From the NCBI GenBank assembly GCA_948567375.1, contig OX419758.1:11475001-11539000 (forward strand): a stretch of DNA of 64,000 nucleotides, written 5' to 3'. The notes under the pieces were generated by a model. The model saw only the letters and a program-made list of their open reading frames with translations. It was not told the origin of the DNA and searched no databases. Position 1 is the first letter of the stretch. Each line of letters starts with the position of its first letter. The translations under genes were made by a program, and so were the position numbers. This stretch comes from Lunularia cruciata (lineage: Eukaryota > Streptophyta > Marchantiopsida > Lunulariales > Lunulariaceae). Shown piece after piece: positions 12,801 through 51,793 of this stretch.

Positions 12801-13052
12801 GAGTAATCACTCCTACCAAAACTGCATCACGTGTAGGGTCCGTAACCACAACATCCGCCATTGCCACCTGATCATCTCAAACCAAGTATAAGTCTGCTTT
12901 AACACCTGTTGTCTGCAAAGAATATAAATTCTCCCTCCAAGCAAGGTATCCACTCTCTCGTGCCATAGCAGACTCTATATCCTTGATGGCATCATGGGTA
13001 GCTATCCTTTATCCTCCATAAGGACACTGTGTCATCTATATTGGTATTTCAT

Positions 13053-28269: not shown

Positions 28270-28274
28270 ACTAC
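28270..28274. repeat. Left target-site duplication ACTAC
   Basis: ACTAC directly precedes the TGTCAC start of repeat X1 and recurs at 38128-38132 directly after repeat Y2. If the element is taken to end in GACA, the duplication is 4 bp (CTAC); both readings fit. Four- or five-base duplications are normal for Ty3/gypsy integrases. Confidence 0.75.
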
Positions 28275-28502
28275 TGTCACGCCATTTGTAGTTCCGCATC
28301 TAGATGCTCGGACACTGGAGTTCCAGTGATAGTAGTTAGAGTTATTCTAGCAATTTCTCAGAGACTACTTTCCGACGGTTAGATTTTGTGTTCGGGGTAC
28401 TGACTTCACGGTGGGGCCCACCATCACTTTGCACCGTTTGCACCGTCGAGTGTGCCATCAGCGGGACCGTTAGGGTTTCAGTGCTAGCTCAAGTCCAGGG
28501 GG

Positions 28503-28510
28503 TATAGTTT
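28503..28510 (+). promoter_or_regulatory. TATA-like box of the methyltransferase-gypsy element
   Basis: TATAGTTT lies 28 bases before TCACTTCTCTGATGT (28531-28545). That is the expected distance if the transcript starts at that tract. The same spacing is kept in X2 and, as TATACTTT, in the truncated copy near 60903. Confidence 0.55.
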
Positions 28511-28530
28511 TGAAGTGAGCTCCAAAGAGC

Positions 28531-28545
28531 TCACTTCTCTGATGT
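28531..28545 (+). promoter_or_regulatory. Predicted transcript 5' end and self-primer
   Basis: TCACTTCTCTGATGT is the exact reverse complement of 28659-28673, which begins at the last base of X1. In the Tf1 family of yeast Ty3/gypsy elements, the first bases of the transcript fold back and prime reverse transcription at a site next to the LTR. The geometry here is the same. X2 and the truncated copy each differ at one base of this tract. Confidence 0.6.
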
Positions 28546-28659
28546 TTGAGTGGGTGTGGCTTGACTGTAATCAGTGCACAGTTGTTGGTAATTTATAGAG
28601 TGACAAATCAAGTACTGATTTGAGTTGAGTTGAGTTGAGAGTGGTAAGCAATCTGATTA

Positions 28660-28673
28660 CATCAGAGAAGTGA
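28660..28673 (+). promoter_or_regulatory. Putative self-priming primer-binding site
   Basis: CATCAGAGAAGTGA starts at the first base after X1 and is conserved in the truncated copy (61095-61108). It does not match the usual initiator-Met tRNA site beyond an ATCAGAG core. It does match, in reverse complement, the predicted transcript start at 28531-28545. Location and conservation point to the primer-binding site. Confidence 0.6.
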
Positions 28674-30151
28674 AGTCAGGGGGAAATTGGGTGCAAGAAC
28701 TATGAGTGTTGGTGGTATCTCCAAGCTAGGTGGATCGTTGGTAGCTCGATTCAAGTTTTGTGTTTCCCTAGTGTGTAGAAGATCAATCGATTGATGCAGA
28801 TTTGGCAATTAGGCGGACGGTGTGTGGAAGCGTTGGCCAAATTTCGAGCAAAGAAGAAGCAATTTTTGAGTAGTGTTGTGATTTTGAGCTCAAGAGGTGA
28901 AGGCAAGACCAATTTGCTGCAAGTTGGGCTCAGAAAGTCAAATTGAAGGTGGAGTTGGGAAGCATTTCTCATGAAATTGTGATTTGGAAAAACCCATTTT
29001 GTCAATTTGGCTTGAGTGGAAAGTTAGCGGGGGATTTGGCGGACAACCATCTTTAGGGTTTACGTCAGATTTTACGTCAGATTTTAGCCAAAATTGGAGG
29101 AGTTTTCACTGTTTGGCCAGATTTGGAGGACTTTTGCTAGTTTGGAGGACTTTCACAGATTTGGAGAAGTTTTGCCAATTGTGGAGGAGGTTCAAAGTGG
29201 CAACAAGATTTGCTAGTTTCAAGGACTTTCGCAGATTTGGAGAAGTTTTGCCAATTGTGGAGGAGGTTCGAAGTGGCAACAATAAAGGCCTCATTTGGGC
29301 ATTTAGAGGCTTCGAGGCATAGGGCTGTGGGCTACGAAGGCCTAGAAGGGCCAGCAAGCCAGCTAGTTTAGAGTAGATCTTGGTCATTGGTTGGCAAAAT
29401 CTGCCTTTCCTGCTAGATTGTGCGCAACAGGGTTTGACCCCTAGATCTCTTGTTCCTAGACTGGTGCCCTAGCCAACTGGTGCACCCTCACTTGTTGTCA
29501 TAGTGACTGTGCCACTATTATCTATACACATGTAGCTTTGGCTAAAAGAGGCAGTTTGATCCCATTCTTGGTGATCCTGGTAGCTTAGGACTTAGATACG
29601 AACTGCTCTTATGTCAAATGCCAAATGGTGGCAAAGTCAATCCCGTGTTGTGTTATGAGATGGAGGGTTTTTGTTTAGATTTCTTGTGATTGGATCCACT
29701 CCATTCTTTACTTCCTATTTGTGCACCACGTTTGTGTGAGGTGCCCTAATTTTTGAGCGTTGGTGCTCTGGTGTGCTCTCGGAGGTGAGGCTGGAGTGAT
29801 GACCAGTCAGACTACCTTTGTTTCTCTCCGGTGAGGCAGGAAGTGATGACTTGCAGACCGTGAGAGTGCGTGTTATGATGGCAGGTTACAGGTTGCCCTT
29901 CCCCTAGTGTAGTTATCTCGGTTAGAGTTACATTAGTGGGTGGTGCTTAGTTGGTATTGGCACTTGGTGGTGTTGGCACTTGGTGGGGTACTTGCGGTTG
30001 CGACTTGCGGTAGCAGTTGGTGGTTTGGGTTTGCTATTGTGGTTACTTTGTCACAACGGAGTTCTTTGTAGATTCTCAAAGAGTTAGCCCTGCAGTACGC
30101 AGTGGGTTTACTCGGAGTGGTGCTTGGTATCAGCCTATATCTCAAGTCCCA
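28674..30151 (+). other. Long leader of the methyltransferase-gypsy element
   Basis: About 1.5 kb between the primer site and the first Gag ATG. It contains no conserved protein and is collinear with 61109-62455 in the truncated copy. It includes a 76-bp tandem duplication at 29161-29282 and purine-rich GGAGGA repeats. The copy at 60.7 kb has its own different tandem duplication in the same place. Confidence 0.6.
29161..29282 (+). repeat. 76-bp tandem duplication in the leader
   Basis: The unit starting TTGGAGAAGTTTTGCCAATT at 29161 restarts at 29237. The second unit is partial and differs at single bases (for example TTCAAAGTGG against TTCGAAGTGG). It is a recent local duplication within the untranslated leader. 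Confidence 0.85.
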
Positions 30152-31805
30152 ATGAGGGAGGAGATTGACTCTGAGTTGGAGTTCGACACAAGAGCTGATT
30201 CAATTGAGAGTGCACTTGGTGTGTCCGCACCGTTGTTGTGGGACATGGACAAGATTTATGGGGCCTCCAAAGGCCCTAGGCGTTACTTTGGTACAGTGGG
30301 TACCATTGAGTTGGATGACTTCATCCAAGAGTTTGATAGTTGGTGTGATCTGCAGCAAATGCGGAACCCGACTTTGTTCACACCCTTCATGGCATGGAGG
30401 GGGTTGTTTCAGCATCTGGAGGGTCCGCCGATGGATGACTACCATGAGTTGGTCTCAACACTATGTCTCCATCATTTCAGGCTTGGTGGCTAGGAGTAGA
30501 TCGGCTGTACCCACGAGTTCTAGCTCGAGTAGTGTTGGTGGAGCTAGTGGAGGTGCACTAGCTAGAGATAGTGCTACTACGAGTGGAGGAACCGCTGCAG
30601 GAGGTGGTGTGGTACCGGGGTTTAACCCCATGGTGGAGTTCTTTCTATGTTTGAGGCAGAACTACCAGGGAGTGCGGACTGACAAGCTGAGGAGCTTGCA
30701 GGAGTTCCAGCGGAAGGCTGGAGAGAGCCTACGCAAGGCATACACTCGCATGAGTCGGCTGATCAGTTTCACTCAGGGAGTTACTGAGGCCCAGGCAGTC
30801 CAGTTTTGGTATGGGATACTGAACATGGAGTTGCGACGTAGAGTTTGTCATGCTAGGTTGTTGCAGGCTACTTCGCCCACTTTGGCAGTAGTCTTTGGTT
30901 TGGCTGAGCGTATTGAGCTCAACATGGTGGAGGAGAAAGTGGTGACATCTGGATTTGGTAAGGAGACCTCATCCACGGCTGTGACTTCTTCTAGAGTGCA
31001 GCAGAGTGCACCACGCCCAGTTGGTTTTCAAGGACAGGGTGGACAGCCCAGATCCTATAGAGCAAGTGGAGGGCCTAGTGGAGTTAGACCCTTCCCCTCA
31101 TTTTTGAGTCAACAGCAGCCAGTGAGTGGTGGTGTTGCTTGTTGGACTTGTGGTGGACCTCACCATAGGAGAGAGTGTACTCAGGGCAGCGGACCTGATA
31201 CCTCTGGTGCATCACAGCCAACACAAGGGCAGTGTGAGCATTGCCACAAATTTGGTCACACTAGTGACCGGTGTTTTGACCTACACTTGGAGTTACAGAG
31301 TGGTAGGGCTGCTATGGCAGGTAGTAGAGGAGCTCCAATTCATGGAGGACGAGGTGGTAGAGGTGGTAGGAGAGGATCTACACCTAGTAGGGGTGCAATA
31401 CCTGCCCTTACTTCTGACACAACTATGGCTACTCGGATTGAGCAGTTGGAGCAGAGATTGGCTAGTATGGCTATTGTTCAGAGGAGATCAGATTCAGGTG
31501 CTGAGGCTTCCACCTCATATGCTAGTGATAGAGATGCTTTGGACTTCATGTGCGGAGTAGCACAGGTGGGTGCATCTGCAACAGTGACTAGGAGTGCAGT
31601 ACGTGCTCCAAAGCCTAGAGGAGCATCAGTGGAGTTGGACTCACAAAGAGGAGAGGTTGGGAGACAGGTCAAACTTCCCCAGTCCTTCACGCTATCTGAG
31701 GCATTGCAGACGACATCCATGGTTCCTAAACATCCCAATGCAAGTGTGGTAGGTGTTGATGGAGTATATGATGGACTACCTGCTAGTCAGCCACCTACTA
31801 CTACA
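30152..31805 (+). pseudogene. Gag of the methyltransferase-gypsy element
   Basis: The structural protein forming the particle and binding RNA. The frame opens at ATG 30152 (MREEIDSELEFD) and runs to about 30450. There a 44-bp deletion, visible against the truncated copy, shifts the frame; Gag then continues to a TAG at 31806. It has a capsid-like core (LRSLQEFQRKAGESLRKAY), two zinc knuckles at 31140-31178 (CWTCGGPHHRREC) and 31233-31274 (CEHCHKFGHTSDRC), then a Gly/Arg-rich basic stretch and a short coiled-coil-like segment (IEQLEQRLASM). The knuckles and basic tail would bind nucleic acid. The copy is dead because of the frameshift. Confidence 0.85.
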
Positions 31806-31823
31806 TAGACTGAGTCTAGCAAG

Positions 31824-32792
31824 ATGTTGGGGGTGGCTCAGCTGATTATGCGGCATCCTTTATTTTCAGCCAATGACATGTTTACATTGGGAGTTGACCC
31901 AGCCCCAGTATTCCGGTTGGCTGCAACGTTGTGTGAGAGTAAGGATGGTGCAGTTCCTACTACTAGAGTAGAGGTGGTTGGTAGTGGAGCTGACTTGGTT
32001 GAGGAGCATGGGATCTGTTCAGCGACCAGTGGTTTATGGCAGGCAATAGCGGCTAGACTGGAGGAGTTGCCAGCTAGACCGGCCTTTGAGAGAGCACGGT
32101 TTACACCTGGTGTTGTCCTATTGGATAACCAAAGGGGGATTTTTCATTTGGTGGGACCTTCAAGGAAGGTCTATATACCATAGAGAGTCTTGTTAGACTC
32201 TAGTGCGCAGCCCCTTATGTTGGGGAAGGCTGCAGTTGTCGGTCTGGAGTTACAGAAGACCGATGTGGAGAGGTGTCCATTTCAGATCCAGACATCTCTA
32301 GGTGGTGGTTCGACACAGTACATCACACGTGGAGAGCTTGTTGTCCAGGTTCAGCCTGGTCATCCGACTGATAGCTCGGTGGTGAGAGCTCAGGCTATTG
32401 CGATGATAGCTCAATCATATGATGTGCTAGTTGGGGGATCAATGTTATACCCCATGGGTTTCAACATTGACTATTGGGAGGAGATAGCCTCTAATAGACC
32501 TGGTTGGCAGTCTGGTGAGGGACGGGTATGTCGCCTACCAGTATGCTTTAGTAGTGGCAGTCTTGGCTCACTACAGTCCGGGACCATGGCAACATCAGTT
32601 TTAGCTTTCAGCGATGCAGTTACTTGGCCTGGTGACTTGTTGGAGGTGAACGCCCATGCAGAGGATACTCCAGTACCAGAGGAGATCACTTGGCTTTGGA
32701 GTATGAGTGGGATTGTTCCATCCACCTTGGATGTTCCATTGTGGAGTTCAGAGGAAGCATTGCAGCAACATGCAGATCAGTTGGTGCAGTAG
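31824..32792 (+). pseudogene. Retroviral-type aspartic protease region
   Basis: It lies in the same frame as the end of Gag, broken by TAG stops at about 32181 and 32790. The active-site region reads VLLDSSAQPLMLGKAAVVGL (Asp codon 32197-32199). The usual Asp-Ser/Thr-Gly triad is Asp-Ser-Ser here, which probably kills activity. The second half has YDVLVGGSMLYPMGF, matching the conserved hydrophobic loop. The enzyme would process the polyprotein. The last part (about 32500-32790) is an uncharacterised linker toward the methyltransferase. Confidence 0.75.
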
Positions 32793-32906
32793 GCTTGGAG
32801 TGGAGCCTTCGTACCATCAAGAGATGAGTGTGAGGATGAGCCTCCAGAGGCGATTGCTTTGACACATCTGGATACCACACTCATTGCTTGGCAGTATCCA
32901 GTAGAG

Positions 32907-33900
32907 GGGATATGCCTATTGGAATTGTTTGGTGGGATCAGCACTGGACTAGCTGTGGTGTTACAGGCGGGTATACAAGTATAGAGGTACTTATATGTAG
33001 AGAGAGATGAGACTGCTAGGCAAGTCTCTCTACATCATGTGGCACACTTGGCCTATCAATATCCATAGTTATTATCAATGTCAGCGGTCAGAGGTTACCA
33101 GAAGGCCCTACCAGGAGATATTTCCTTACTAGGGGCGCATGACCTAGAGAGACATGGGCCTATTCACTTGGTGATTTCTGGATGGCCATGTGAGGAACAT
33201 ACACGTGCTGGTAGAGGATTGGGTCTTCAGGATCCTTGTTCTGGTGTGTTTTGCGAGATGTTACGGATATTACAACATCTCCAGGTTCATCAGTCCGTTT
33301 CTCCAGCTTACCTTTTGGAGAACATTCCTTTGATGGGTGATTCTCGCACTAGAGTGGTGGCAAGTACACATCAAGTCCATTCTTGGATGAGACCTGCTAT
33401 ATTTTTAGATGCAGCCAGAGTGGGATCACAGGCTCATCGTCTTTGTCTTTGGTGGACAAACCTCTTACCCAGAGGGGTTCTACAGTGCGCTTATGATGGG
33501 ATTCAACAACTTGACCACATCCTTGTTGATGATATCTTGGATGTTGGGCATCAGTCTCAGACAGTGGTAGTGGCTGATAGGTCACCTATGGCACTGGTGC
33601 ACCTAGTTGGACAGCCTAGAGCCGCATTTCCCACACTCATGAGTTTCCCAAGCTCTCATGCTTTTCAAGAGGGAGGACTTGGACTTGTTTGGGACTCACA
33701 GTTACAGAAGTTGGTGGAGCCCAACGCTAATGAGAGAGAGCGGGTGATGGGTTTTCGCATTGGTATTACCACTGTTCCAATAGTGTTAGAGGCATCTAGG
33801 CGTCAGGTGTTAGGATAGGCTATGGACCTGAATTGTTTGACATGGATTGTGAGCCTTGGCTTGGCAGAGCAGCATAGGATGCGCTTGATAGGCATCACCA
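32907..33900 (+). pseudogene. C5 cytosine DNA methyltransferase domain (DNMT3-like)
   Basis: A cytosine-C5 methyltransferase transfers a methyl group from S-adenosylmethionine to DNA. All core motifs occur in canonical order. Motif I (SAM binding) is LELFGGISTGLAVVL at about 32919-32963. Motif II is YVERDETA. Motif IV, with the catalytic Pro-Cys, is GWPCEEHTRAGRGLG (Cys codon 33189-33191). Motif VI is LLENIPLMG (Glu at 33318). A motif VIII-like AHRLCLWWTN and a motif IX/X-like ERERVMGFRIG follow. The I-to-X order excludes the permuted arrangement of plant DRM enzymes; DNMT3 affinity is my reading of the motifs. TAG stops at about 32982, 33066 and 33816 interrupt it. It lies in frame between protease and reverse transcriptase, so it was part of the polyprotein. 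Confidence 0.85.
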
Positions 33901-33968
33901 CTCGGACACTTGTGAGCCCTGTGCCTATTGAGACAATTCAGGCACATGCTGGGGGTGATGGACCGAGT

Positions 33969-34064
33969 GGACATGGTATTCTTGGGACACATCCAATAGC
34001 TACTAGGGAGAGTGGTCTACTTGGAGTCCATCCAAGTGAGCGTGGGGTACTTGGATTACACCCT
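33969..34064 (+). repeat. Three short protein repeats in the MTase-RT linker
   Basis: The linker between methyltransferase and reverse transcriptase contains three spaced copies of a Gly-x-Leu-Gly-x-His-Pro motif (GILGTHP, GLLGVHP, GVLGLHP), each about 12-13 residues apart. The role is unknown; a flexible linker or protein-binding array is possible. Confidence 0.7.
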
Positions 34065-34235
34065 TGGTCCACATGGGACGCAGCTAGAGGACGTGTGGAG
34101 CTTGCAGCCAGAGTGGAGGGAGTTTTTCACACAGAGGTTGGGACCTCTAGTGGTTGGGAGCATGACACTATTGCTCCTAAGGGCCTAGTGTAGCAGTCAG
34201 TCAGTACGTCTTCCACTCCTACTATAGTTACAGAG

Positions 34236-35113
34236 GATACTTGGGAGCCAGATCTTGGACCCAAGCTTACTAGAGAGGAAAGACGGAGGGATTGGAGGTT
34301 CTTGAGGAGTCACATGAGTTGTTTTGCCTTTAGTTTGAAGGATTTGGGTGCTCTGAAGGGACCTAGTATACGGATTGAGCTGACTAGCAACACACCAGTT
34401 TTTCGACGTCCTTATTGATATAGTGATATGGAGAGGACATTGATTCAGAGCCGGAGTAGTGACCTTTTTGAGGCTGGTTTGGTGGAGATTTCACATGTAG
34501 AGTATGCATCAACGACAGTGATGCCAGCCAAGAAGGATACGCATGGCAACTATACAAAAAGGCGGATGTGTGGAGATTACCGTCCTATCAACCGACAAAC
34601 CAGGGCTGATTGGTATGCCATGCCTACACCAAAGGAGATTTTTGATGCAATTGGGCATGCAAAGGCTTTAGTACTTTGGATCTTCAAGTGGGATATCATC
34701 AGTTGCCGATCAGGGAAGAGGATAAGTCCAAGACAACATTTTGGGCTATTGATCCTCACGGCAAGGATGTGTTATATCAGTGGAGGTTCTTACCATTTGG
34801 GTTAAAGAACGCTCCTGCTGAGTTCCAGAGGGTCATGGATAGGATCCTATCGGGATTGGATTTTGCTCGATGCTATATTGATGACATTTTGGTTTATAGC
34901 ACTATTGTGGAGGAGCATGAGAGACAATTGTTGGAGGTGTTTGAGAGGTTGAGATCTCATGGACTCAAATTACATCTTGGGAAGTGTAGGTTCTTCCACA
35001 AGCAGGTTGAGTATTTGGGTCACACTATCTACCCCGGAGGACTTGGTGTTCAGCAGACCAAGGTAGAGGCTATTGCACGTATTCCTCGGCCTACGGATGT
35101 GAGTAGAGTGTGA
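34236..35113 (+). pseudogene. Ty3/gypsy reverse transcriptase
   Basis: The RNA-directed DNA polymerase of the element. The fingers hold TREERRRDWRFL, then VEYASTTVMPAKKD and MCGDYRPINRQT. A frameshift near 34665 separates these from LDLQVGYHQLPIREEDKSKT, then FLPFGLKNAPAEFQRVMDRI and the catalytic YIDDILVYS (34874-34900), then GHTIYPGG. A TGA at 34416 falls where an Arg is expected, and another TGA follows at 35111. It is contiguous with the RNase H. The catalytic core is intact within its own frame, but the polyprotein is broken. Confidence 0.9.
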
Positions 35114-35125
35114 GCATTCCTTGGG

Positions 35126-35660
35126 TTGGCGAACTTCTATTGCCGCTATGCTAGAGGATTTAGTGCCATTGCCAAGGCCTTGACGAAGCTGACCAAGCTT
35201 ACACATGAATGGTGTTGGAGAGATGAGCAAGAGAGAGCTTTTGTAGAGCTCAAGGAGAGGTTGACATCTGCTCCTATTTTGAGGAGACCGATCAGGGGAC
35301 GACCATTTCAAGTTCACACTGATTGGAGTATGTTGGGGCTTGGAGCGGTGCTCACCCAACATAATGATGAGGAGAAGGAGTTTGTGGTGGCCTATGCTAG
35401 TCGCTCAAACAATTCAGCGGAGGCAAAGTATAGTTCATATGAGGGAGAGTGCTTGGCAGCAGTTTGGGCAATAGCTCATTTCCGATGTTACCTATTTGGT
35501 AACTCCTTCACTCTCATCACTGATCATCAGCCGCTGAAGTAGTTGATGGAGTCCGACAAGCTTTCAGGGAAGCTTGCGTGATGGGCTCTGATTTTACAGG
35601 AGTATGATTTCACGGTTGTTCACAGACCTGGAGTGGTGAACCGTGATGCAGATGGGTGAG
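35126..35660 (+). pseudogene. RNase H domain of the methyltransferase-gypsy element
   Basis: It follows the reverse transcriptase after one TGA. FLGLANFYCRYARGFS is the connection; FQVHTDWSMLGLGAVL, YEGECLAAVWAI and LITDHQPLK supply the catalytic Asp, Glu and Asp. It degrades the RNA template during cDNA synthesis. A TAG directly after LITDHQPLK, where the family has Trp, and a TGA soon after, where Arg is expected, are typical of this copy's decay. Confidence 0.85.
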
Positions 35661-35875
35661 TAGAAACCCATGTCCCACCCAGCAGGATCAGACCGGAGCA
35701 CATTGGCATGGTGAGACAGATGAGGAGATGGTGCCGGGTTGGCATGCATCGATGTATATTTGCAAAGGCTTTGGTGGTATCTCTCTCAGTGCATACATGA
35801 GGAGTTATTGAGGTCACAGATCCAGAGAGTGAAGATATTGGTACAGTTTAGCAAGACATTCATGATGATATCTTA

Positions 35876-36990
35876 GTGATGGACTATCTTTGCACTGGTG
35901 TTGTGGGTGGCACAGTTGGCGCTAAGGAGAGAGACCGTGTTCTTCAGCAAGCCAGACGGTTCAGATTGGAGGGTAGACACCTTTTGCGTGTATGGGAGGA
36001 TGGTAGAGTGCGAGTAGTACCACTTCCATCACAGAGACCACAGTTGGTCCATCATGCTCATGAGGAGTTAGGACATTTTGGAGTAAAGTGTACGTATAGC
36101 TTACTCCAGAGTCATTATTGGTGGCGCGGTATGCAGACCAAGGTACAACATTTTATTGCCAGATGTGTGGTTTGTGACCGAGTCAGAGCATCATTCAATG
36201 CTCATATGCCACAGTTACACCCATTACCTATCATGGGATTGGGTTACCGTTGGAGTTTGGACTTCACCGGACGTTTACCGCTGACTGTGAGACATCATTG
36301 GTACGTTTTGGTGATGGTGGAGCACTTCTCCAAGTGGATTGAGTTGGTGGCACTTCCTAACAAGTCTAGTGAAGGGACAACTTACTTGTTCCTGGATCAA
36401 TTTCTTAGTCATTTTGGTGCACCAGCTGAGGTTTTGACTGATCATGGTACAAAGTTCTTGGGGGAGTTTCAGGTCTTGTGTGACAAGGCTTTGATTGATC
36501 ATCGTACTACATCCCGAGATCACCCTAAGGCAGATGGCTTAGCAGAGAGAGTGGTTCAGACGGTGAAGAAAGGATTGCAAAAGTATGGTTTTCAGAGAGG
36601 CCACTTGGGAGATTGGGATCTCTAGTTACCTTGGTTGGCCATGGGCTATCGGTTCAGCCGGCAAGCCTCCTTAGCATCCTTCTCTCCATGCTTTCTACTC
36701 TATGGACGAGATCCAGATTTACCTGCAGCCATTTGTCAAGATGCTACTGTAGTTTTGGACTTGGATGACCCCGATGTATGGATGAGCGCATGTTCTCAGC
36801 GGGCAGAGATCTTTCGGAGAGTGATGCCGATGGCCTTTGAGAACTTGGCAATTGCTCAGCATAGAGATAATTTACGCTATGCTACCATTCGAGGAGGAGG
36901 TTATAGACCCTCGATCCGTTGATTTCATCCAGGCGACTATGTATATCTACAGCAAACAGCACCGACGACACTTGATGTTTCGATAGGCCG
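35876..36990 (+). pseudogene. DDE integrase of the methyltransferase-gypsy element
   Basis: It inserts the cDNA into the genome. The zinc-binding HHCC domain is HHAHEELGHFG ... CVVCDR. The catalytic core has Asp in WSLDFTGRLP (36260-36262), Asp in LTDHGTKFLG (36440-36442) and Glu in GLAERVVQTVKKG (36545-36547), so all three acidic residues are kept. A TAG at about 36624 and a TGA at about 36920 interrupt the C-terminal part. A basic, GPY/F-like module follows (about 36998-37130: VHEVLPSGVLVLEGRDGVVW). Its clear DDE type separates the element from tyrosine-recombinase DIRS/Ngaro elements, despite the similar repeat layout. Confidence 0.9.
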
Positions 36991-36997
36991 CACTATC

Positions 36998-37297
36998 TTG
37001 AGAGTGCATGAGGTTTTGCCATCTGGAGTCCTTGTGTTAGAAGGACGTGATGGTGTTGTTTGGAAGGATCATGTGCGCAATTGTGCGCTATGCCACCTCC
37101 CAAACATTGATGGTACTATGGACCCAAGCTTGGCACTTGTACGTGCAAGCTTGAGGTGTATGTTATGTGGCTCTTCTGGTGGAGCTGCTACTATGTTAGT
37201 GTGTGATAGCTGTTCGAGAGGATGGCATATGACATGTATGACTCCTCCCCTCACGGTAGTTCCTCAAGGACAGTGGTTATGTCCTAGATGTACTTGA
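36998..37297 (+). CDS. Integrase C-terminal module fused to a PHD finger
   Basis: This open frame ends the polyprotein at the TGA 37295-37297. Residues coded at 37157-37294 form a complete Cys4-His-Cys3 PHD finger: CMLC, then CDSC, GWHMTC, and GQWLCPRC with the family's conserved Trp before the last Cys pair. PHD fingers read the histone H3 tail, usually its Lys4 methylation state. In chromoviruses a chromodomain sits at this position and steers integration to methylated H3K9. A targeting role here is inference by analogy. This end of the polyprotein is uninterrupted, although upstream parts are broken. Confidence 0.88.
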   Translation: MRVHEVLPSGVLVLEGRDGVVWKDHVRNCALCHLPNIDGTMDPSLALVRASLRCMLCGSSGGAATMLVCDSCSRGWHMTCMTPPLTVVPQGQWLCPRCT

Positions 37298-37453
37298 CTT
37301 ATAGCTAGTTCATTCTTTATATGGTATGGATTGCAGACAAGCGACTAACGATGGGGCTCCATAGCACCCGGCCTCTTGATCTTTGCCCATTAGAGGGTAT
37401 ACCATATACTTAGAGTAGATGGCTATTTGGAGTTAGAGGGAACTAACCGCCAG

Positions 37454-37465
37454 CTAGGGGGGCGA
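37454..37465 (+). promoter_or_regulatory. Polypurine tract
   Basis: CTAGGGGGGCGA lies directly before TTGTGGCAC, the start of repeat Y1. Plus-strand DNA synthesis of LTR elements starts at such a tract and defines the left edge of the LTR. By this criterion the LTR begins with Y, not X. Confidence 0.7.
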
Positions 37466-37570
37466 TTGTGGCACTTTAGAGTCTATGTATGACTTATATG
37501 TGAGTTGTGTTTCTATAGTGTATGATGTTGACAGCGATGTATGTTGTGTAGCGATGTATATACGCATGAC
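37466..37570 (+). repeat. Terminal repeat Y1
   Basis: 105 bp from TTGTGGCAC to CGCATGAC, repeated as Y2 at 38023-38127 with about five substitutions. It lies directly after the polypurine tract and before X2. No copy precedes X1. Confidence 0.9.
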
Positions 37571-37577
37571 AGCTGTC
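37568..37577. promoter_or_regulatory. Palindromic Y1/X2 junction
   Basis: GACAGCTGTC is a perfect palindrome spanning the end of Y and the start of X. It reads as ...GACA, two bases, TGTC..., the form expected of two element ends joined head to tail. The integrated element begins TGTC and ends GAC(A), so the integrase seems to recognise exactly these ends. Confidence 0.65.
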
Positions 37578-38022
37578 ACGCCATTTGTAGTTCCGCATCT
37601 AGATGCTCGGACATTGGAGTTCCAGTGATAGTAGTTAGAGTTATTCTAGCAGATTCTTAGAGACTACTTTCCAACGGTTACATTTTGTGTTTGGGGTACT
37701 GACTTTACAATGGGGCCTACCGTCACTTTGCACCGTTTGCACCATCAAGTGTGCCATCAGCGGGACCGTTAGGGTTTCAGTGCTAGCTCGAGTCCAAGGG
37801 GTATAGTTTTGAATTGAGCTCCAGAGAGCTCACTTCTTTGATGTTGAGCCTTCGAGTTCCTGGCTATGGTGGACAGAGTCCAAGGAGCATCACCTGGATT
37901 CTCTAGGCTTGAGTGGGTGTGGCTTGACTATAATCAGTGCCCAGTTGTTGGCAGTTCATAGAGTGACAGATCAAGTACTGATCTGAGTTGAGTTGAGTTG
38001 AGAGTGGTAAGCAATCTGATTA
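37574..38022 (+). repeat. Terminal repeat X2
   Basis: 449 bp, the right-hand copy of X1. It keeps a 64-bp segment missing from X1, and the truncated copy at 60.7 kb also has that segment, so X1 suffered a deletion. It is followed directly by Y2 rather than by flanking DNA. Confidence 0.9.
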
Positions 38023-38127
38023 TTGTGGCACTTTAGAGTCTATGTATGACTTATGTGTGAGTTGTGTTTTTATAGTGTATGATGTTGATAGCGATGTATG
38101 TTGTGTAGTGATGTATATACGCACGAC
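38023..38127 (+). repeat. Terminal repeat Y2
   Basis: 105 bp, the second copy of Y. It joins X2 at GATTA/TTGTGG and ends at CGCACGAC, where similarity to Y1 stops (after one further shared A) and the ACTAC target duplication begins. Its position outside X2 makes the element end X2-Y2. Confidence 0.9.
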
Positions 38128-38132
38128 ACTAC
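38128..38132. repeat. Right target-site duplication ACTAC
   Basis: Identical to 28270-28274 and immediately outside Y2. It shows that the whole X1-to-Y2 unit integrated as one piece. Confidence 0.75.
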
Positions 38133-41970: not shown

Positions 41971-44740
41971 CTATTTCTAACCAATATCCTCATGAGAACA
42001 TGATAACTTGCAGTTTTATTACAATTTTATAACCTATTGGTTTTTTTAAGTACTATCTTTAGGAAATGCATCATGACTTAAATATAAGTACAAATATTTT
42101 TACATAAAAGATTAGTTTCAAATTATAAATATTAAAGTAAAATGTTCTTGAAGTTGTAGATAAGGATACTCAAGGAGATGGTGAAATTTTGATTGACTAT
42201 AGAGAAGAAATCTCAGCATATATTTGTAAAGTCTAAAGTGTAAATGAAAATAGACTTATGAAATGCAAACCTCAACTTCAACTAATGCAATTGATGCAAA
42301 AGACTTTCTATATTATCTTAATATTTCCATTCATGTCAATGAGGAAGTAGAAGTCAAACCTAGGTTTTACATTATAGAAGTTTAATAGCATTTTTCTGCA
42401 AGGTATTAGTGGGTATAGATATGTATGATGTATGGACATTTACCTCAACAAACATTTTTGATGATAAATGTTCATTTTCTCAATCAAATTTATATTTTAC
42501 TAGAGATTTGGTTGATACTGTCTTTCTTACAACTTCAACTAATACAATTGATGCAAAAGGCTTTCAATATAAATGTTTTATTTCCCATTTATGTCAACAA
42601 GGAAGTATAAAAGGATAGTCAAACCTAAATTTGACAATGTAGAAGGAAGTTTAATAGAGGTTTTTTACAAGGTATTTTTGCAAATAGACGGGTTTGAAAA
42701 AATATGAAACTTACCTTGACAAAAAAATTTGATGCTAAATGTTCATTTTCTAACTACAAAATGCTAAATGTTCATTTTTAAAGCAAATTTATGTTTTGCT
42801 AGAAATTTGGTTAATACTCTATTTCTTACATAAGTAGTTTTATATGATTTATGGGATGCAAACCTTGGAGAGTATTATTGAAGTAACTTTTGCAAAAAAT
42901 GGATAAATTAATCCTATGATAGATTGACTTCTCCCACATTTTCTTCCTAACTCCATTGTAATATATGGATTAGAATGTACTTGAAAGAAAGTACAAACTG
43001 ATTATTTTATGACCTTTTTAAAGCATACCACCAGAATTGAAATTTGGAAGGTGAAGTAATTATGAAATTAATCGATTTTTGGATGTTCATTGAAAAAGAA
43101 AGTCCCATTTTTTTACTAATACTTGAAAATATGTATTTTTCAAATTTAGCCATAACCATAAAGACTTATAATTTTGGAGAAATCAAGAAAGGTTCTTGGA
43201 TATTGATTTTGTTCCTATTATCTATGACATGTTGTTAAGTTTAGCAGCCTAGAAAACTATATTTTCAAACTTATTGTACCTTGATTCACCTCTTCAGAAG
43301 GTGATAAACTCTATGAATTCAACTTGTTTTTAGAATCATTTGTTTTAAGGTTGGGCTAAGACTGGCGGGAATGTGATCTTCCTCTTGTTGCTAGACAAGT
43401 CTTTATTATGTATTACAAAGAATGAAGGGAAGAGAAAGCAGTTTCAAGTTACTTGATTACAAGTTGCTCTACAATAATCACAACAAGCAATATTCAGATA
43501 TTAAAGTTTTGGTTTTCTTTTTAAATTTAAAAGTGAATGTCCTCACTCTTCCCTTCTTTGAGTTTGAGTGTACAATTTATACTTATGTAACAAGAAGCAT
43601 ATTCTTTATCCTTAATTATTATGGTAAAAGAAAGTATCATGTTTTGTTATAATTCAAGTTACTAGATTGGAAGTTTTACTAGCAAATAATAACCAACCAC
43701 TTCAATTTACAAAATCTAAATATTATAGACCTGTACTGATAATCTCTAGCCTAAACTCTACTTTACTTGTTATGTTTTGCTCCCAATGTTCTTCAACTTG
43801 GGTGCGTATATCTGAATGGCTCATTTGCCCAAATTTTGACATGAAAATAATTACCTTCAATGTAATTACAAAGTGGGTCAATACATATCAATCTCTTATG
43901 CATCATTAAGACTCTTTTGCCATTCTCCTAATGTCCCAATCAACCTTTACTTCATACCAAGAGTGCATATTGTTACAAATTTTTGTTAGCTCTAAACGTA
44001 GATGGAATATTTCTGGTTTTTAGTTGATCAAAAACTTGTTCATGATAGTGGATTAAAACCTAAACCTAGACAAAGAGTATTTTTATTGTTGGAGCTATCA
44101 AAATCCAAGAAAAAATAAAACCTTAACCCCCAAGGTCCAATACTTATTGCACCTTCATAGTAATTTATGTAAATTATAAATGACTTACTATTTAAATCCA
44201 TTCAACTTACTATTTAGATGACATCAATATCATTGCAAACAATCCAATCATCTCTTCATGCTTCTTGCTTGTTCACTTAATTGCCATTTTAAGATCATCA
44301 CTTGCTTCAAGCTTCATCCTAATAATGAGTTCAATCACGCTTTGTACATTGAACATTTTCCTCAAATGGAAAAGATAATGTTTTCAAAGAAATCATTTGC
44401 CAAAACCATAGACATGGATAATACAAGTTTCATATTTGCAATTTAGAAACTCAATCTAGTCTCATTTCATGAATCTACTACACATAACTTTACAACTTAG
44501 CAAAAACCTTTCTAAAATCTTTTGAGTATAAGATAGTTAGTAACTAGAGCATGAGTGCTAATCCACAGTATTGAAATATAAATATATATTTCAATACTTC
44601 CATTATAAATATAAAATAATCTATCTATGCTTAAAAAATACCTATGGCTATATATTAATTAAATACAATTTATATTTATATTACCTTAATGAAAGAAGAT
44701 GAAGTACTAATAAAGACATTGACTATTCTAAGAATACAAA
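41971..44740. other. AT-rich stretch without a supportable gene
   Basis: Very AT-rich and almost without CpG. Short open frames only, none with recognisable motifs. It contains a duplicated segment at 42270-42840 and a run of TATAAATAT repeats near 44575-44610. Confidence 0.5.
42270..42840. repeat. Tandem duplication, period about 257 bp
   Basis: AACTTCAACTAATGCAATTG near 42275 recurs near 42532, and the motif AAATGTTCATTTTCT at about 42465 recurs near 42738. The block is present about 2.2 times with many substitutions. No coding content is seen. Confidence 0.7.
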
Positions 44741-46268
44741 TCAAGTCGTGAGAGTGGTTAGCTTCTCATGCTAATTGCATTTTGGGGTTATTTGAGACTA
44801 GTTTTCTATATCCATGTTTACGCTATAGGCTACTCCATACACTCCATGATGAGGCTAGATAGGCTTTTTGCCTACCACTTGATTGTTTGGCATGTGATCC
44901 CTTGGACGAGTTAGCATGGTTCCTATTCCTCTCACTCCCTCGATGGTGTCTTTATTATGCTAGAGGGGGACATGCAGAGCATAGAGAGGTTGCTGCTAGA
45001 TTTTTTCAATTCTGAGCAAGGGGTTAGTTTGCCCTTCTAAAGGAGTTTTTTAGGGTTGCACATTTTAGGAGAAAATTTTCAAATAGGATACCATAGACTC
45101 CACTTGATTACAATGGTGGAGGACATTGGGTCAAGCAAGAGAGTTTAGTAGAGCAGAACGAGCACTACACCCTTTGTCTATGGCTAGTACTCCTGATGAG
45201 AATATGTTTTCCCTACACTCACTACATCATATGGCAGGAGAGGGATTACCACTAGAGGTCTTAGATTATTAGTTTGAGTAGTCTTTATGTCTTGATAGGT
45301 CACTTTTTGCACAAGCATTGTGCATTGCCCCTTGCTTTCCTCAAGAGGCTTGTTTATGAACATCTTAGAGATTGCTCTCAAGTAGATGATCCTTTTAGTG
45401 GTTTTACCTAATTGTTTTAGGTGGCTATGGTAGTAGCAAGAGGAGACATTCCTATGTCTATTGGTCGGGTGTTAGGTGCTAGTCAACTTCACAATGGAGA
45501 AGGACTATAGGGAGCATAAGACCAATTGCTATTGGAGAGATCTTTTTGTGTTTGGTCAGTCGCACCATTGTCCTTTAGCATCATTCTCACTTCCAACAAC
45601 ACCTTAGTCCACATCGATTTGGAGTTGCCACACATAAAGGGTGTGAGGCTATATCTCTAGGCATCAGGGCACTCCTAGATATCCATCTAGAGTGGATCAT
45701 CCTACGGGTGGATGTTGAGAATGCTTTTAATAGTAGCTCACAAGTATCTATCTTTGGATAGCTTAAGGAAGTTGGTGGATCTTTGGTGAGTCTTGTTCCT
45801 TTTGTGCGGTCTTTTTATTGCTCTCTTGCTTCCCTTTACTACCAACACGGTTGTTCATAGGAGGGATTCATTGTCTTGGAGTCAATTGATGGTATACATT
45901 AGGAAGATCCTTTTGGGGGACCCTTATTTGCCATGACTCACTTTAGAGCTCTCTTATCTACTACTTTGGCCATGCCAAGTTGTGTATTTTCCTCCTCAAT
46001 AGATGATACACACATCATGGGCCTTGTAGATCAGATTAGGTAGAACTTTGACCACTTGACTACTGAGCTACATCTAGTGGGCTTGAGAGTCAAGATGTCA
46101 TAGTGCAGGGCATGGTCCCCTTTAGGTATCTCTCCCCACCTTGAGCTTCTAGAGGGGTGTATCACATCTATAGATGGAGTTTGTGTTCCAAGAGTACCAA
46201 TAGGATCCAATGATTTTGTCACATGCTTCTTAGATGCTGTCCTTGCATAAGATGTTCTCCATGTGGAT
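44741..46268 (+). mobile_element. LINE copy 2, 5' part
   Basis: Collinear with LINE copy 1 (minus strand, 15345 to about 13830). It includes GGCTACTCCATACACTCCATGATGAG-type sequence near 44828 and the reverse-transcriptase region around 45640-46230, all broken by stops. It is interrupted at 46268 by the chromodomain gypsy element and resumes at 51794. Confidence 0.8.
46264..46268. repeat. Left target-site duplication TGGAT
   Basis: TGGAT precedes the 5' LTR and recurs at 51789-51793 after the 3' LTR. Joining the flanks at one copy restores the sequence found uninterrupted in LINE copy 1 (complement of about 13820-13826). Confidence 0.95.
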
Positions 46269-46620
46269 TGTAACAATATGGAGTTTAGCGACAAAGTTAG
46301 TCCGACTCACGAAGTAGCACATAAGACAATTAGCCTAGAATATTCCAAAAGTATCTAGGAAGCTTCTTGGGAAGCTTCCCGGCTAGCTTAGCTTGCACTT
46401 CAAGTAAGGAGCTTCTAGAAGCTTCCAACTAGCTTAGCTTGCATGCCAAGTAGGCGGCTTCTAGAAGGAAGCTTCTTGAGAAGCTTCTCAAGGGCCTTGT
46501 ATGATACCTATAAATACCAAATCTAAAGCTCATGCTAGGCATTCGGAGTTTTCCCTCATTCAAGTGTCCCAATGTGAGTTTCCATTCTCCTATTTCTCTC
46601 CTCGGATTTGGTCTTTTACA
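46269..46620 (+). repeat. 5' LTR of the chromovirus
   Basis: 352 bp, beginning TGTAACAATATGG and ending TCTTTTACA. It carries TATAAATA at 46509-46516 as the probable promoter. The middle has palindromic GAAGCTTCTTGAGAAGCTTC-type units. The 3' LTR has more of these. Confidence 0.93.
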
Positions 46621-46621
46621 T

Positions 46622-46633
46622 TGGTATCAAAGG
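46622..46633 (+). promoter_or_regulatory. Primer-binding site (initiator Met tRNA type)
   Basis: TGGTATCAAAGG follows the 5' LTR after one base. It matches the common plant primer site TGGTATCAGAGC, complementary to the 3' end of initiator methionine tRNA, at most positions. Confidence 0.85.
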
Positions 46634-46891
46634 GCGGTTTGGGATGGATGGAATTTATGGACCACCAAATCCACTTCCACCAAACCATTGGGATTTTTGC
46701 GTCCAAATACTACCCAAGCATTGTTTCACACAATTCATCACCTCGCACTTTGGACAAGATTTTCTACATATGATCACCATATCTGAGGAACTCTTGGTGC
46801 TTCCGATTGTAACTTATGGAGAACGGTGGACGTGCTATTTCTATGTGTTAATAAATTAGATAGATTCAGAATGGTGTGATAGAGTAGCAAC

Positions 46892-47840
46892 CATGGCGGC
46901 AGTACCCAATGTTATCCTTGCTATGTAGCAACAAATTGAGCACCTTACTCGATTGTTGGATGAACAAGATCTTTGATGACAAGAGCAGGCAGAGAGTACT
47001 AATTTGAGAAGGAGAAGATCGGATCAAATTCCCTAAACCCAAGGTATTTGAAGGCAAGAATCTTTTGGGTGTAGTGGAGAATTTTGTGTTTGATTGTGAA
47101 TGTTATTTTGAAGCTACCAATCTACAAGATGAGCAAAAACAGATTCTCTTGGCTTCTAGCCAATTGGATGGAGTAGTAAAGCTATGGTGGAGATTTCAAG
47201 TAGAGCAAGCGGAACAACCAAGTGTTGCAGCAATATTGACATGGGCAGAATTCAAGTGCGCAATAATTAGTTGGTTCTAAGCTATAAATACCACACAAGC
47301 TACACGAGATAAGTTGGCAGGGTTGAAACAGATTGGCTCTATAAGAAGTTATATCACGCATTTCCAAAACGCCATCATGCAAATTCCAGATATATTGGAA
47401 GGTGAAGCTCTGGATCAATTTGTGAGGGGCTTGAAGGTGAGAACCAAATTAGAGGTAACCATGCAAGAGCCACAACACATGGAAGAAGCTATGCGGTTGG
47501 CCAAATGCTTTGATTCCTTGGTGGCAACAACTTGGTCTTGACCTTGACCTTCACAGAGCCTACCAATACACAAGTGGAGGAGCCAATATCCATGGAGATT
47601 GATGCCATTCAACGAAGACCACTTGGCATAGCAAATAGAGAGAAACTGCGACAAAATGGTAGTTGTTTTACTGTCACCAATTGGGGCATCACATTGCTGA
47701 ATGTCCACTCAAGAATGGATGACCTTGACAAGTTGCCCAAGTGGAGGTCGTGGAGTGGAATGATCAGGGAAATGAGGAATCCTAGTAGGAGATTTCCAGC
47801 CACCTATTGGGAGCTTGATTAGTTCCAATGGGATTGAAGG
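46892..47840 (+). pseudogene. Gag of the chromovirus
   Basis: Broken into frames including 47065-47280, 47314-47541 and 47532-47822. The capsid-like core has VKLWWRFQVEQAE and LKQIGSIRSYITHFQNA. The zinc knuckle region near 47660-47705 is split by a frameshift: its first Cys is in one frame and the Gly-His ... Cys part in another. Start and end are approximate. Confidence 0.75.
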
Positions 47841-47889
47841 CTTGACCTTTGCAAGTTTGCTTCACTTGCAAGGTATGATATCTAATTAG

Positions 47890-48240
47890 GGTTGTAGGAT
47901 TTTGGTTGATTTTGGAAGTTTAGAGAATTGCATGTCTATGCAAGTAACAAAGGAATTAGGTATTCCTATCAAACCAGTGATTGGAAGTAGTTTGATGATG
48001 GCGGATGGTAGAAAGGGTTCTGCATTTCGCACCTTGCATCCTGTTACCTTCAAGATTGGGAAGGAGTATTTGGAGTGTATGAGGTTTGTAGTGGCACCTC
48101 TATACTATGATATCATTTTGGGTCTACCTTGGCTTGAATGTCATAATGTTCAATTTGATTGGACTCGATGCCAAATTCAAGTACAACACCAAGGTAGGAA
48201 TTTCCGATTAGGTTGTCTGGCACCTCTGAGTAAGACACCT
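47890..48240 (+). pseudogene. Aspartic protease of the chromovirus
   Basis: VDFGSLENCMSMQVTKEL carries the active-site region, with Asp-Phe-Gly in place of Asp-Ser/Thr-Gly. It is followed by YYDIILGLPWLECHN, the conserved second half of gypsy proteases. It lies within an open frame (47902-48450) that continues into the 20-residue repeats. Confidence 0.75.
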
Positions 48241-48250
48241 AAGAATAGTC

Positions 48251-48430
48251 AGTCCCAAGATGGGAAGTTTATCAACAAGGTAGCCATAGAGCAAACCTTG
48301 AAGGAAGTGGAGTCCCAAGATGGGAAGTTTGCCAAGAAGGCAACCATAGAGAAAGCTTGGAAGAGAGGTGAGTCCATAGAAGGGAAGATTGTTAGTAAAG
48401 CAGCCATAGAGCAAACTTTGGAGGAAAATA
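48251..48430 (+). repeat. Three tandem 60-bp units encoding 20-residue repeats
   Basis: Units at 48251-48310, 48311-48370 and 48371-48430 are exactly 60 bp each and stay in frame. They encode SQDGKF(I/A)(N/K)K-type starts followed by AIEQTLKE-like helices. They lie in the linker between protease and reverse transcriptase. Confidence 0.93.
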
Positions 48431-48477
48431 AGTCTAGATTTGCGGTGTAGATCAAGCCAATTGCACAAGAAAAATCT

Positions 48478-49263
48478 GTGGAGGACCAAGAGCCTCATCA
48501 AGCAATGGTTGATCGAATAGTTAAGGAGTTTACGGACATGTTTCAAGATGATCTGCCAAAGGGATTACCTTCCAATCGAGGTATGCCCTTCAAGATTGAG
48601 TTATTGCCAAGGAGTTGGAGGAGTTGCAAACAACACTTACAGAGTTGTTGGAGAAGGACTTCATATGACATAGTACCTCTCCTTGGGGAGCACCGCTACT
48701 ATTTGTTCCAAAGAAGGATGGAGGACTTCATTACTGTATTGATTATCGTGGGCTCAATAAGCAAACCGTGAAGAATGCATATTCCTTGCCTCGGATTGAT
48801 GACTTGCTTGATCAACTTAGTAGAGCATGCTTCTTTTCCAAGTTGGATCTTTGCAACGGCTATTGGCAAATTTCCACTGAGAGAGAGGATGTGCAAAAGA
48901 TTGCCTTTTGTACAAGGTATGGGCATTTTGAGTAGAGAGTTCTACCTTTTGGACTCACTAATGCTCTTGTAGTCTTCATGGATCAGATGCATTGGGTGTT
49001 GGATGGACTATTGGATCGGTCCATGGTGGTGTTCTCGGATGATATCTTAATTTATAGTAAGACAGAGGCAGAACTCGTGAATCATATGCGATAAGTCCTA
49101 AGACGACTATGATAATGGAAATTTTACTGCAAGAAGTCAAAGTGTGCCTTTTGGCAGAAGAAGGTTACCTTCTTGGGTCATAAGATCTCATCAGAGGAGA
49201 TCAAGATAGAAGAAGAGAAGATCACGGCCAATACTGATTGGCCTACCCCAAAGGATGCTACAT
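48478..49263 (+). pseudogene. Reverse transcriptase of the chromovirus
   Basis: A frameshift near 48610 precedes the core. After it come [53 protein letters not shown], the catalytic FSDDILIYS (about 49032) and FLGHKISSE. Stops occur at about 48660, 48930, 49090 and 49110. The identity is clear from order and catalytic Asp-Asp. Confidence 0.88.
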
Positions 49264-49283
49264 AAGTCCGAGCATTCAATGGA

Positions 49284-49832
49284 TTGGCCAATTTTTACCA
49301 ATGGTTCATCTATTACTATGCTCATGTGGCTGCACCATTGACTGACCTCTTGGGAAAGAACTTGAGCTTCCAGTGGACCACCAAGCATGAAGAAGCATTC
49401 CAGAAGTTAAAGCATATGGTGTCTTCAAGACCCATTCTTCAACCATATGATCCTCAACTACCTTGTGTGGTTGATTTTGATGCTTCTAACTTTGCAATTG
49501 GAGCCGTGTTGCAACAAGAATTCCCAAATGGACTCCATTCCATTGCCTTTGTGTCTCGCAGACTCAATACGGCTGAACGAAACTACTCTGCTCAAGATCG
49601 AGAACAACTTGCAATGGTATATGCCACCAAGGTATGGAGGCATTACCTCTTGGGGAAACAAGTGATCATGCAAACTGATCACAAACCATTGTTGCAGACC
49701 TTACACTTGGAACACATGAAGAGTCAACATCATCGATGGGAGGAACAACTCCAATTGTATGACATAAACTTGAGTACAAACCAGGTTGGTTCCATATCAT
49801 CCCTGATGCTTTATCACGATGACCTGATTTGA
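49284..49832 (+). pseudogene. RNase H of the chromovirus
   Basis: A 182-codon frame with VVDFDASNFAIGAVLQQ, YSAQDREQLAMVYA and MQTDHKPLLQT. The first catalytic Asp is in DFDAS and the last in QTDHKP. It begins at the RT-RNase H connection (GLANFYQWFIYYYAHVAAPL) and is uninterrupted within the frame. Confidence 0.88.
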
Positions 49833-49874
49833 AGTCTCTTCCTCTCATCATAGCGGCAATTTCAACGGTGTTAG

Positions 49875-51113: not shown

Positions 51114-51116
51114 GTC

Positions 51117-51310
51117 CAACCGCCCCCTCTTCATGTCCCTATCAATGATCATGAGGATTACGAAGTTGATCGTATCCTTGCGCGTCGCCATATTCAACGA
51201 GACCGTTGCCAACATACCAAGTACAAGGTCCTTTGGAAAGGGTATCCCCTTCATGATGCCACATAGGAACCTCTTTCTCACCTCCTAAATGCACAAATGG
51301 CCATCTAAGA
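51117..51310 (+). pseudogene. Chromodomain of the chromovirus integrase
   Basis: After the integrase stop the frame continues with YEVDRILARRHIQR and KYKVLWKGYPLHDAT, then a TAG where chromodomains have Trp, then EPLSHLLNA. Chromodomains of chromoviruses bind methylated H3K9 and bias insertion toward heterochromatin. The aromatic and WKGY core identifies it. Confidence 0.85.
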
Positions 51311-51350
51311 ATTTGAAGCTTCACTGGCGATGAGGATGTCACCAACTAGC

Positions 51351-51362
51351 GGCGGGGGAATA
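51351..51362 (+). promoter_or_regulatory. Polypurine tract of the chromovirus
   Basis: GGCGGGGGAATA lies directly before the 3' LTR, at the expected site for plus-strand priming. Confidence 0.8.
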
Positions 51363-51788: not shown

Positions 51789-51793
51789 TGGAT

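Follow-up and report, generated by a model that had tools for sequence, protein, structure and literature searches.

A Ty3/gypsy retrotransposon family of the liverwort Lunularia cruciata that carries a DNMT3-like methyltransferase and whose integrase ends in a PHD finger

Cytosine methyltransferases carried by retrotransposons have been reported from algae, where their roles are described as unclear (PMC5890265). The closest described case is KnitGypsy-Dnmt3 of Klebsormidium nitens, a Gypsy element that encompasses an unrearranged DNMT3-type domain and has repeats in the order A-coding-B-A-B, an arrangement likened by its authors to DIRS (PMC5890265, de Mendoza et al. 2018). Here we describe a gypsy-type element in a 64-kb stretch of the Lunularia cruciata genome (GCA_948567375.1, contig OX419758.1, positions 11,475,001 to 11,539,000; hereinafter, the window), which represents a new form of the DNMT3-carrying Gypsy elements described in Klebsormidium. 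The first-pass annotation of the window mentioned methyltransferase-bearing retroelements of charophytes and dinoflagellates as precedents; these are indeed known, and the Klebsormidium element is a closer one than that annotation allowed, being likewise a Gypsy element with a DNMT3 and the same repeat layout (PMC5890265). The two differ in that the DNMT3 domain of KnitGypsy-Dnmt3 is stated to belong to the Pol open reading frame (ORF), whereas the one described here ends the Gag-protease ORF ahead of a UAG codon; furthermore, the host is a land plant rather than Klebsormidium. The term 'PHD' does not occur in the main text of PMC5890265. A search of mostly openly accessible literature yielded no description of a Gypsy retrotransposon integrase that bears a PHD finger and none of DNMT3 Gypsy elements in bryophytes.

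DIRS-type retrotransposons have a tyrosine recombinase and are not known to produce target site duplications, and chromoviruses are Ty3/gypsy elements with a chromodomain on the integrase C-terminus. The L. cruciata element resembles chromoviruses in that a domain of chromatin-reader type is located at the C-terminus of a Gypsy integrase, but here a PHD finger takes the place of the chromodomain, for which no Pfam match was obtained in the window copy or in the open ORF2 of one sampled copy (L022). Other retrotransposons with captured epigenetic domains reportedly include elements from arthropods (de Mendoza and colleagues, 2019) that carry a methyl-CpG binding domain and in which the captured domain would be a reader of DNA methylation, as opposed to a writer combined with a histone-type reader. 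DNA transposons of the Ginger1 class are not known to encode reverse transcriptase (RT) or methyltransferase. One of these, Ginger1-9_HM from Hydra, has an integrase of the Gypsy type whose C-terminal part includes a PHD finger, and it additionally contains Ulp1 (PMC2836005). The SymbioDIRS-Dnmt3 and SymbioLINE-Dnmt elements of dinoflagellates also are retrotransposons with cytosine methyltransferases, and the SymbioDIRS-Dnmt3 enzymes are active on CG sites in yeast (PMC5890265). Unlike these elements, which have the DIRS tyrosine recombinase or, in the LINE, no integrase, the L. cruciata element has a DDE integrase (rve in Pfam) and 4-bp target duplications, and thus is not of the DIRS type.

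The element occupies positions 28275-38128 on the + strand of the window and is flanked on both sides by a 4-bp target duplication. The span originally annotated, 32907-37297, does hold the region from the methyltransferase to the PHD finger but is only a part of the element. A three-frame reading of the + strand gives the domain order Gag, protease, methyltransferase, RT, RNase H, integrase, PHD, and the features are as follows.

28271..28274, + strand: left target site duplication (ctac), identical to 38129-38132
28275..28659, + strand: repeat A1, the left end, begins TGTCACG; A is at the left end in 18/20 sampled copies
28660..28680, + strand: primer-binding-like stretch immediately after A1; present there in 18/18 sampled copies, 4 of which have one or a few changes
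30014..31805, + strand: Gag with two zinc knuckles; in two frames in the window copy, in a single frame in two other copies
32184..32450, + strand: retropepsin-like protease, extent approximate, identified by eye; LLDSSAQPLMLG in the window copy, DSGAQP in relatives
32907..34190, + strand: DNMT3-like C5 cytosine methyltransferase and C-terminal linker, the last part of ORF1 (Pfam, sequence search, sister copies)
34191..34199, + strand: conserved in-frame UAG followed by CAG UCA (UAG CAR YYA context; family comparison)
34194..35660, + strand: RT and RNase H (Pfam); frame change near 34650 in the window copy
35852..37100, + strand: DDE integrase with H2C2, rve core and C-terminal tail (Pfam, also on a sister copy)
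37157..37294, + strand: PHD finger closing ORF2 (Pfam, also on a sister copy); stop at 37295-37297
37455..37464, + strand: G-rich, polypurine-like tract TAGGGGGGCG ahead of B1; present in 17/17 sampled copies with both B repeats
37466..37571, + strand: repeat B1, start within one base either way (repeat comparison)
37572..37573, + strand: spacer of 2 nt (GC) where B1 meets A2 (palindrome GACA-GC-TGTC); intact in 13/17 sampled copies
37574..38022, + strand: repeat A2 (repeat comparison)
38023..38128, + strand: repeat B2, the right end, finishes ACGCACGACA (repeat comparison)
38129..38132, + strand: right target site duplication (ctac), identical to the left copy

The window copy is decayed, with 16 stops including the terminal TGA and a frame shift near 34.65 kb. 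Nevertheless, Pfam searches detect RVT_1 (E-value 3.5e-29), H2C2 (5.2e-17), rve (5.6e-13) and PHD (1.2e-11); the order RT-RNase H-integrase with H2C2 and a DDE core, found also in the open ORF2 of L022, is that of Ty3/gypsy elements. The DNA_methylase match in the window copy (E-value 9.3e-4, 19.2 bits) falls under the Pfam cut-off of 22, and a sister copy scores 32.2 bits. The zinc knuckles of Gag were identified by eye, without a Pfam match in the window copy, and the position of the protease is supported by a PF13650 match at the same place in the relative P0092. Methyltransferase motif I lies at about 32910-32981 and motifs IV, VI, VIII and IX/X within 33069-33815. The placement of these motifs between protease and RT, as first annotated, thus holds, but the claim that they are in frame throughout does not, given the stops and the frame change at about 34.65 kb.

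The methyltransferase and the PHD finger are real, conserved and abundant in this element family. The contigs that hold matches include eight of 60-85 Mb, together about 558 of 566 Mb, as would be expected for a liverwort with eight large autosomes. We searched the host genome (565.8 Mb in 74 contigs) with the methyltransferase piece and obtained 11,383 first-look candidates, the best 150 of which were scored (all with E < 1e-140; 86-89% amino-acid identity, the window itself apart). Every seventh row of this list was sampled, giving 20 copies with one 6-kb and one 2-kb piece each; 17 of the 20 keep the methyltransferase, RT, integrase, PHD finger and the B, A and B repeats, all in this order, and the other three (L023, L031 and L035) are truncated or interrupted. 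A second set of 20 copies was taken at approximately every seventh row of the RT list, so that the selection was independent of the methyltransferase; this list is the best 150 of 33,939 candidates and covers the family to the exclusion of older sister families. Using test pieces of 301 bases for the methyltransferase and 146 bases, at the expected distance only, for PHD, we matched the methyltransferase in 20/20 of these copies, the PHD finger in 18/20 and both in 18/20. Thus, neither domain is absent from most copies, and the hidden Markov model and fold matches to both are significant. Besides being abundant, the family is young: in the 15 copies compared, 3-17 of about 448 sites distinguish A1 from A2, with 112 transitions and 14 transversions in total. 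A second, older copy (about 75-85% DNA identity) that begins with repeat A and Gag is located at 60703-63042 of the window; its continuation past the window (L061, L062) gave no match to A, B, methyltransferase, RT, integrase or PHD at 1e-5.

Comparison of the copies reveals two long frames, one of 1428 codons for Gag, protease and methyltransferase, and one of 1037 codons for RT, RNase H, integrase and PHD. Between them is an in-frame TAG, unmentioned in the first-pass annotation, 1122 bases past the start of the methyltransferase query piece (34191 in the window), which is kept in 35/35 readable sites among 37 distinct copies (two copies have no readable site). The TAG is followed by CAGCCA in 32 of the 35 sites, CAGTCA in 2 and CAGCCG in 1, that is, the UAG CAR YYA context is present in 34/35; other stops are shared by at most a few copies. 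Two copies are open from Gag through the protease into the methyltransferase. The 1428-aa frame was recovered in 9/150 rows (the best 150 of 11,383 methyltransferase matches), in 7 of them without a stop within the match, and the 1037-aa frame in 11/150 rows (the best 150 of 33,939 RT candidates), all without a stop within the match; these lengths were computed by a program that reads through stops within a match and reports them separately. With the relative P0067 as the query, a frame length of 2466 codons (= 1428 + 1 + 1037) was obtained at 8/31 scored loci, inside stops being read through, and the first segment includes one or more TAG codons at all 31 loci.

The UAG CAR YYA sequence is a type I readthrough context, and readthrough at this site is putative. 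In tobacco mosaic virus, UAG followed by CAR YYA is essential for readthrough (PMC2754532). The site described here shares this sequence with type I (tobamovirus) readthrough but is found in a retrotransposon, behind a methyltransferase. Because the conserved UAG separates the two frames, the single polyprotein proposed in the first-pass annotation would exist only as a readthrough product. Placement of the methyltransferase within the Pol ORF was considered as well and, in this family, is contradicted by the conservation of the UAG and by the two frames of 1428 and 1037 codons. Given that the UAG closes the Gag-protease-methyltransferase frame, the methyltransferase is probably made at the Gag level and joined to the PHD finger solely via readthrough; assuming ordinary leakiness of the UAG, RT, integrase and PHD would be made at a fraction of the level of the methyltransferase.

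The methyltransferase is DNMT3-like, as judged by sequence similarity and by the fold ranking of its predicted structure. Its motif order is unpermuted, with the catalytic Pro-Cys and the motif VI Glu, as in DNMT3. The Pro-Cys of motif IV was correctly recognized in the first-pass annotation, although the window copy reads PCEE; by eye, the catalytic Cys is present in 59/59 readable relatives and PCQ is kept in 55/59. Among solved chains, DNMT3A matches by sequence at 6e-12, whereas chains of the tRNA methyltransferase DNMT2 score 0.007 or worse. An AlphaFold model built from 60 sequences (328 residues) has a pLDDT of 96, and DNMT3 entries account for 50/50 matches listed by Foldseek for this model; a first run with 22 sequences and 431 residues, which reached a pLDDT of 45.7, is not the model used. 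A midpoint-rooted FastTree phylogeny covered the 60 methyltransferase relatives only.

The PHD finger at the end of the integrase is complete, as had been annotated, with all eight Cys4-His-Cys3 zinc ligands in the window copy and PF00628 scores of 44.9 bits there and 42.7 bits in L022 (cut-off 24). The best matches among solved chains are CHD4, PHF12, KMT2D, MLL3, the KDM5 lid, DPF3 and KDM5B, several of which we take to be readers of histone H3 with unmodified K4. Inspection by eye did not reveal an aromatic cage for K4me3. By analogy with its nearest solved relatives, the putative binding of this PHD finger is more likely to prefer unmodified K4 over K4me3.

The repeats are split between the two ends, with A alone at the left and B-A-B at the right (A1-coding-B1-A2-B2). 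The identical direct repeats at both ends that usually identify long terminal repeat retrotransposons were not found in the sampled copies, and none of the 18 copies with A at the left end has a same-direction B in the upstream piece. The termini are TGTCAC and ACGACA. Both ends are available in 15 copies, of which 12 have a perfect 4-bp target duplication (the exceptions are L022, L030 and L033), as does the window copy. The stretch after A1, CATCAGAGAAGTGAAGTC, is altered in L022, L029, L033 and L039, and no tRNA primer was matched to it. At the B1/A2 junction, one base is altered in L022, L030 and L036, and there is a break in L034. The A2/B2 junction has one form in 13/17 sampled copies; L038 has a base change, L028 and L037 have one extra A, and L033 contains about 420 bp, including an inverted piece of about 380 bp of its own RT region, which looks like captured filler. 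Among 20 further copies, 14 are readable at this junction and 14/14 have the common form. The A2/B2 junction is therefore precise far more often than not, which is compatible with end joining and with its absence alike. Given the polypurine-like tract before B1 and the primer-like site after A1, standard copying should give B-A-coding-B-A; the 15 sampled insertions for which the two ends are available all read A-coding-B-A-B instead. A circle or tandem of B-A-coding-B-A units opened at the B/A junction would give the observed order.

In 15 copies, C/T differences between A1 and A2 were found at 56/1116 CG (5.0%), 41/1557 CHG (2.6%) and 14/4043 CHH sites (0.35%), with the direction of change unpolarised. 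Such a pattern is left by long-term methylation of CG and CHG sites and does not indicate the responsible enzyme. In an informal observation, the stops in mildly decayed copies (L001-L040) are mostly TAG or TGA, which fits CAG and CGA codons having lost a methylated C.

Protein searches with the methyltransferase piece gave 61 matches, and a second search gave 57. The named hosts are Marchantia polymorpha (Mp_4g09160 and Mp_7g09570), Marchantia paleacea, Riccia sorocarpa, Calypogeia fissa, Sphagnum troendelagicum, S. tenellum, S. jensenii, S. fallax and Closterium sp. NIES-54. Two relatives, P0070 (Mp_4g09160, 1278 aa) and P0092 (1437 aa), consist of Gag, protease and methyltransferase and then end, like ORF1 of the window copy; Pfam detects the methylase in both and the protease in P0092. 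For several other relatives of 1228-1435 aa, PF00145 is the sole Pfam domain listed. A search with the PHD tail identified 7 predicted proteins (48-78% identity). P0064, which extends from RT to PHD, and P0084, a methyltransferase, are each listed with a contig of 6232 bp, which suggests neighbouring ORFs. In P0116 the order is RNase H, methyltransferase, integrase, PHD; in P0110, P0112 and P0117 the methyltransferase is followed by integrase and PHD, with a further unnamed stretch beyond PHD in P0110 and P0117; and P0118 of Closterium contains methyltransferase, RT, RNase H and integrase, without a PHD match. These varied arrangements imply that the association is widespread, with changes of domain order. 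A scan of viral contigs with P0001 as the query gave no match.

Our preferred interpretation, to which we assign somewhat better than even chances, is that of a bryophyte Ty3/gypsy family with a captured DNMT3-like methyltransferase and an integrase PHD finger, in which an enzyme made at the Gag level and packaged methylates the cDNA and the PHD finger biases targeting. Most ribosomes would halt at the UAG, so that the methyltransferase would be made with Gag and packaged in quantity, and a minor readthrough product would supply RT, integrase and PHD. The packaged enzyme would methylate new cDNA ahead of integration, and the PHD finger would keep the complex on the H3 tail and thereby bias the choice of target sites. 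More speculative, and fairly unlikely as a whole, is the broader proposal of a lineage of retroelements that, given vertical inheritance, would date back to the divergence of mosses and liverworts and that combines a Gag-level methyltransferase in the particle, methylation of cDNA therein, integration from a circle or tandem junction, and an H3-reading PHD finger. Under this proposal, the palindromic B1/A2 junction might have formed where two integrase ends abut, and A2/B2 might be a site of cDNA end joining.

Several observations weigh against the preferred interpretation. ORF2 might be expressed by routes other than readthrough, and the RNA 3' of the UAG, folded for one copy, is no better structured than shuffled sequences (z +0.54). 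P0067 runs from the methyltransferase through RT, RNase H and integrase to PHD without an intervening stop, so Gag-level expression is not universal. The enzyme of the Klebsormidium Gypsy element caused no detectable methylation in a yeast assay of 2018 that its authors considered inconclusive (PMC5890265). The relative P0021 has Phe in place of the catalytic Cys, the partial relatives P0027, P0028 and P0055 give no Pfam methylase match, and the CG/CHG-biased C/T differences could arise from host enzymes alone. Signs of selection on the methyltransferase among the genomic copies are weak, with ratios of nonsynonymous to synonymous changes among shared versus single variants of 1.31 vs 1.88 in 32 copies (p = 0.28; excluding L002, L009 and L016, which are the same copies as L021-L023, and L011, L013, L018, L031 and L034) and 0.55 vs 2.08 in 13 copies (p = 0.025). 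The same test gave p = 0.027 for the protease and linker (17 copies, excluding L011, L013 and L018) and, in 13 copies, 0.059 for RT-RNase H, 0.0026 for the integrase and 0.16 for the integrase tail with PHD, with too few variants in PHD alone (the 13-copy sets exclude L023, L028, L031, L034, L035, L038 and L040); because variants shared at CG sites could have arisen more than once, we do not rely on this test.

Alternatively, the methyltransferase could target RNA or act as a nucleic-acid-binding part of Gag, in packaging or annealing, with DNA methylation not its role. The location of the domain directly behind Gag and protease in the same frame is suggestive of such a function, and RNA methylation has been proposed for LINE-borne enzymes (PMC5890265). 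We nevertheless consider it unlikely, because the fold ranks with DNMT3 and DNMT2 is far weaker by sequence, and because the catalytic Cys, invariant among the readable relatives, is not demanded by mere binding. Still less probable, in our view, is that the element methylates itself or its surroundings to reduce its own expression and harm, such that copies persist quietly and the PHD finger is a general chromatin anchor without site choice. The predominance of CG and CHG among inter-repeat differences, the mark of lasting methylation, would be expected under this scenario, and slower retrotransposition is among the options named in PMC5890265. Host enzymes, however, are enough to account for these marks, and the abundance and youth of the family also speak against this scenario. 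Moreover, CHG is not the context in which DNMT3 is known to act.

The PHD finger, for its part, might serve the folding of the integrase or multimer contacts rather than histone reading, a doubtful but serious possibility. The PHD finger annotated in one Ginger1 transposase was given no function in its description (PMC2836005), which leaves room for such a role, whereas the presence of all eight zinc ligands, the similarity to PHDs of chromatin proteins and the retention of the tail in the 7 predicted proteins argue for a reader. Finally, an ordinary decayed retrotransposon with chance motif matches might be suspected from the window copy, with its many stops, frame change and sub-threshold methylase match; the recovery of the domain in all RT-picked copies and in many relatives, together with the high-confidence model, makes this explanation practically negligible, and we consider it ruled out by the family data.

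Elsewhere in the window, positions 47902-51113 hold another Gypsy-like element, in which protease, RT/RNase H and integrase were recognized by eye. Long inverted stretches of about 80% similarity at 12340-15295 and 44789-53205 point to an additional repeat family present in two copies; the former includes an RT-like ORF (13818-14369, by eye). A cytokinin dehydrogenase-like exon was identified by eye from its translation at 6346-7083 (minus strand), and AT-rich sequence at 42273-42751 contains two families of direct repeats, 83-84% alike and about 260-270 bp apart.

Thus, in an abundant, young family of land-plant retrotransposons, a methyltransferase is tied to Gag rather than to Pol and is accompanied by a histone-type reader in the integrase; the combination of split repeats with target duplications raises the question of how a DDE integrase locates its ends. 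Should the preferred interpretation be true, a jumping gene would bring its own tools for handling the chromatin of the host. Since relatives are present in the tractable Marchantia polymorpha, both pre-methylation of a transposon and reader-steered integration become testable.

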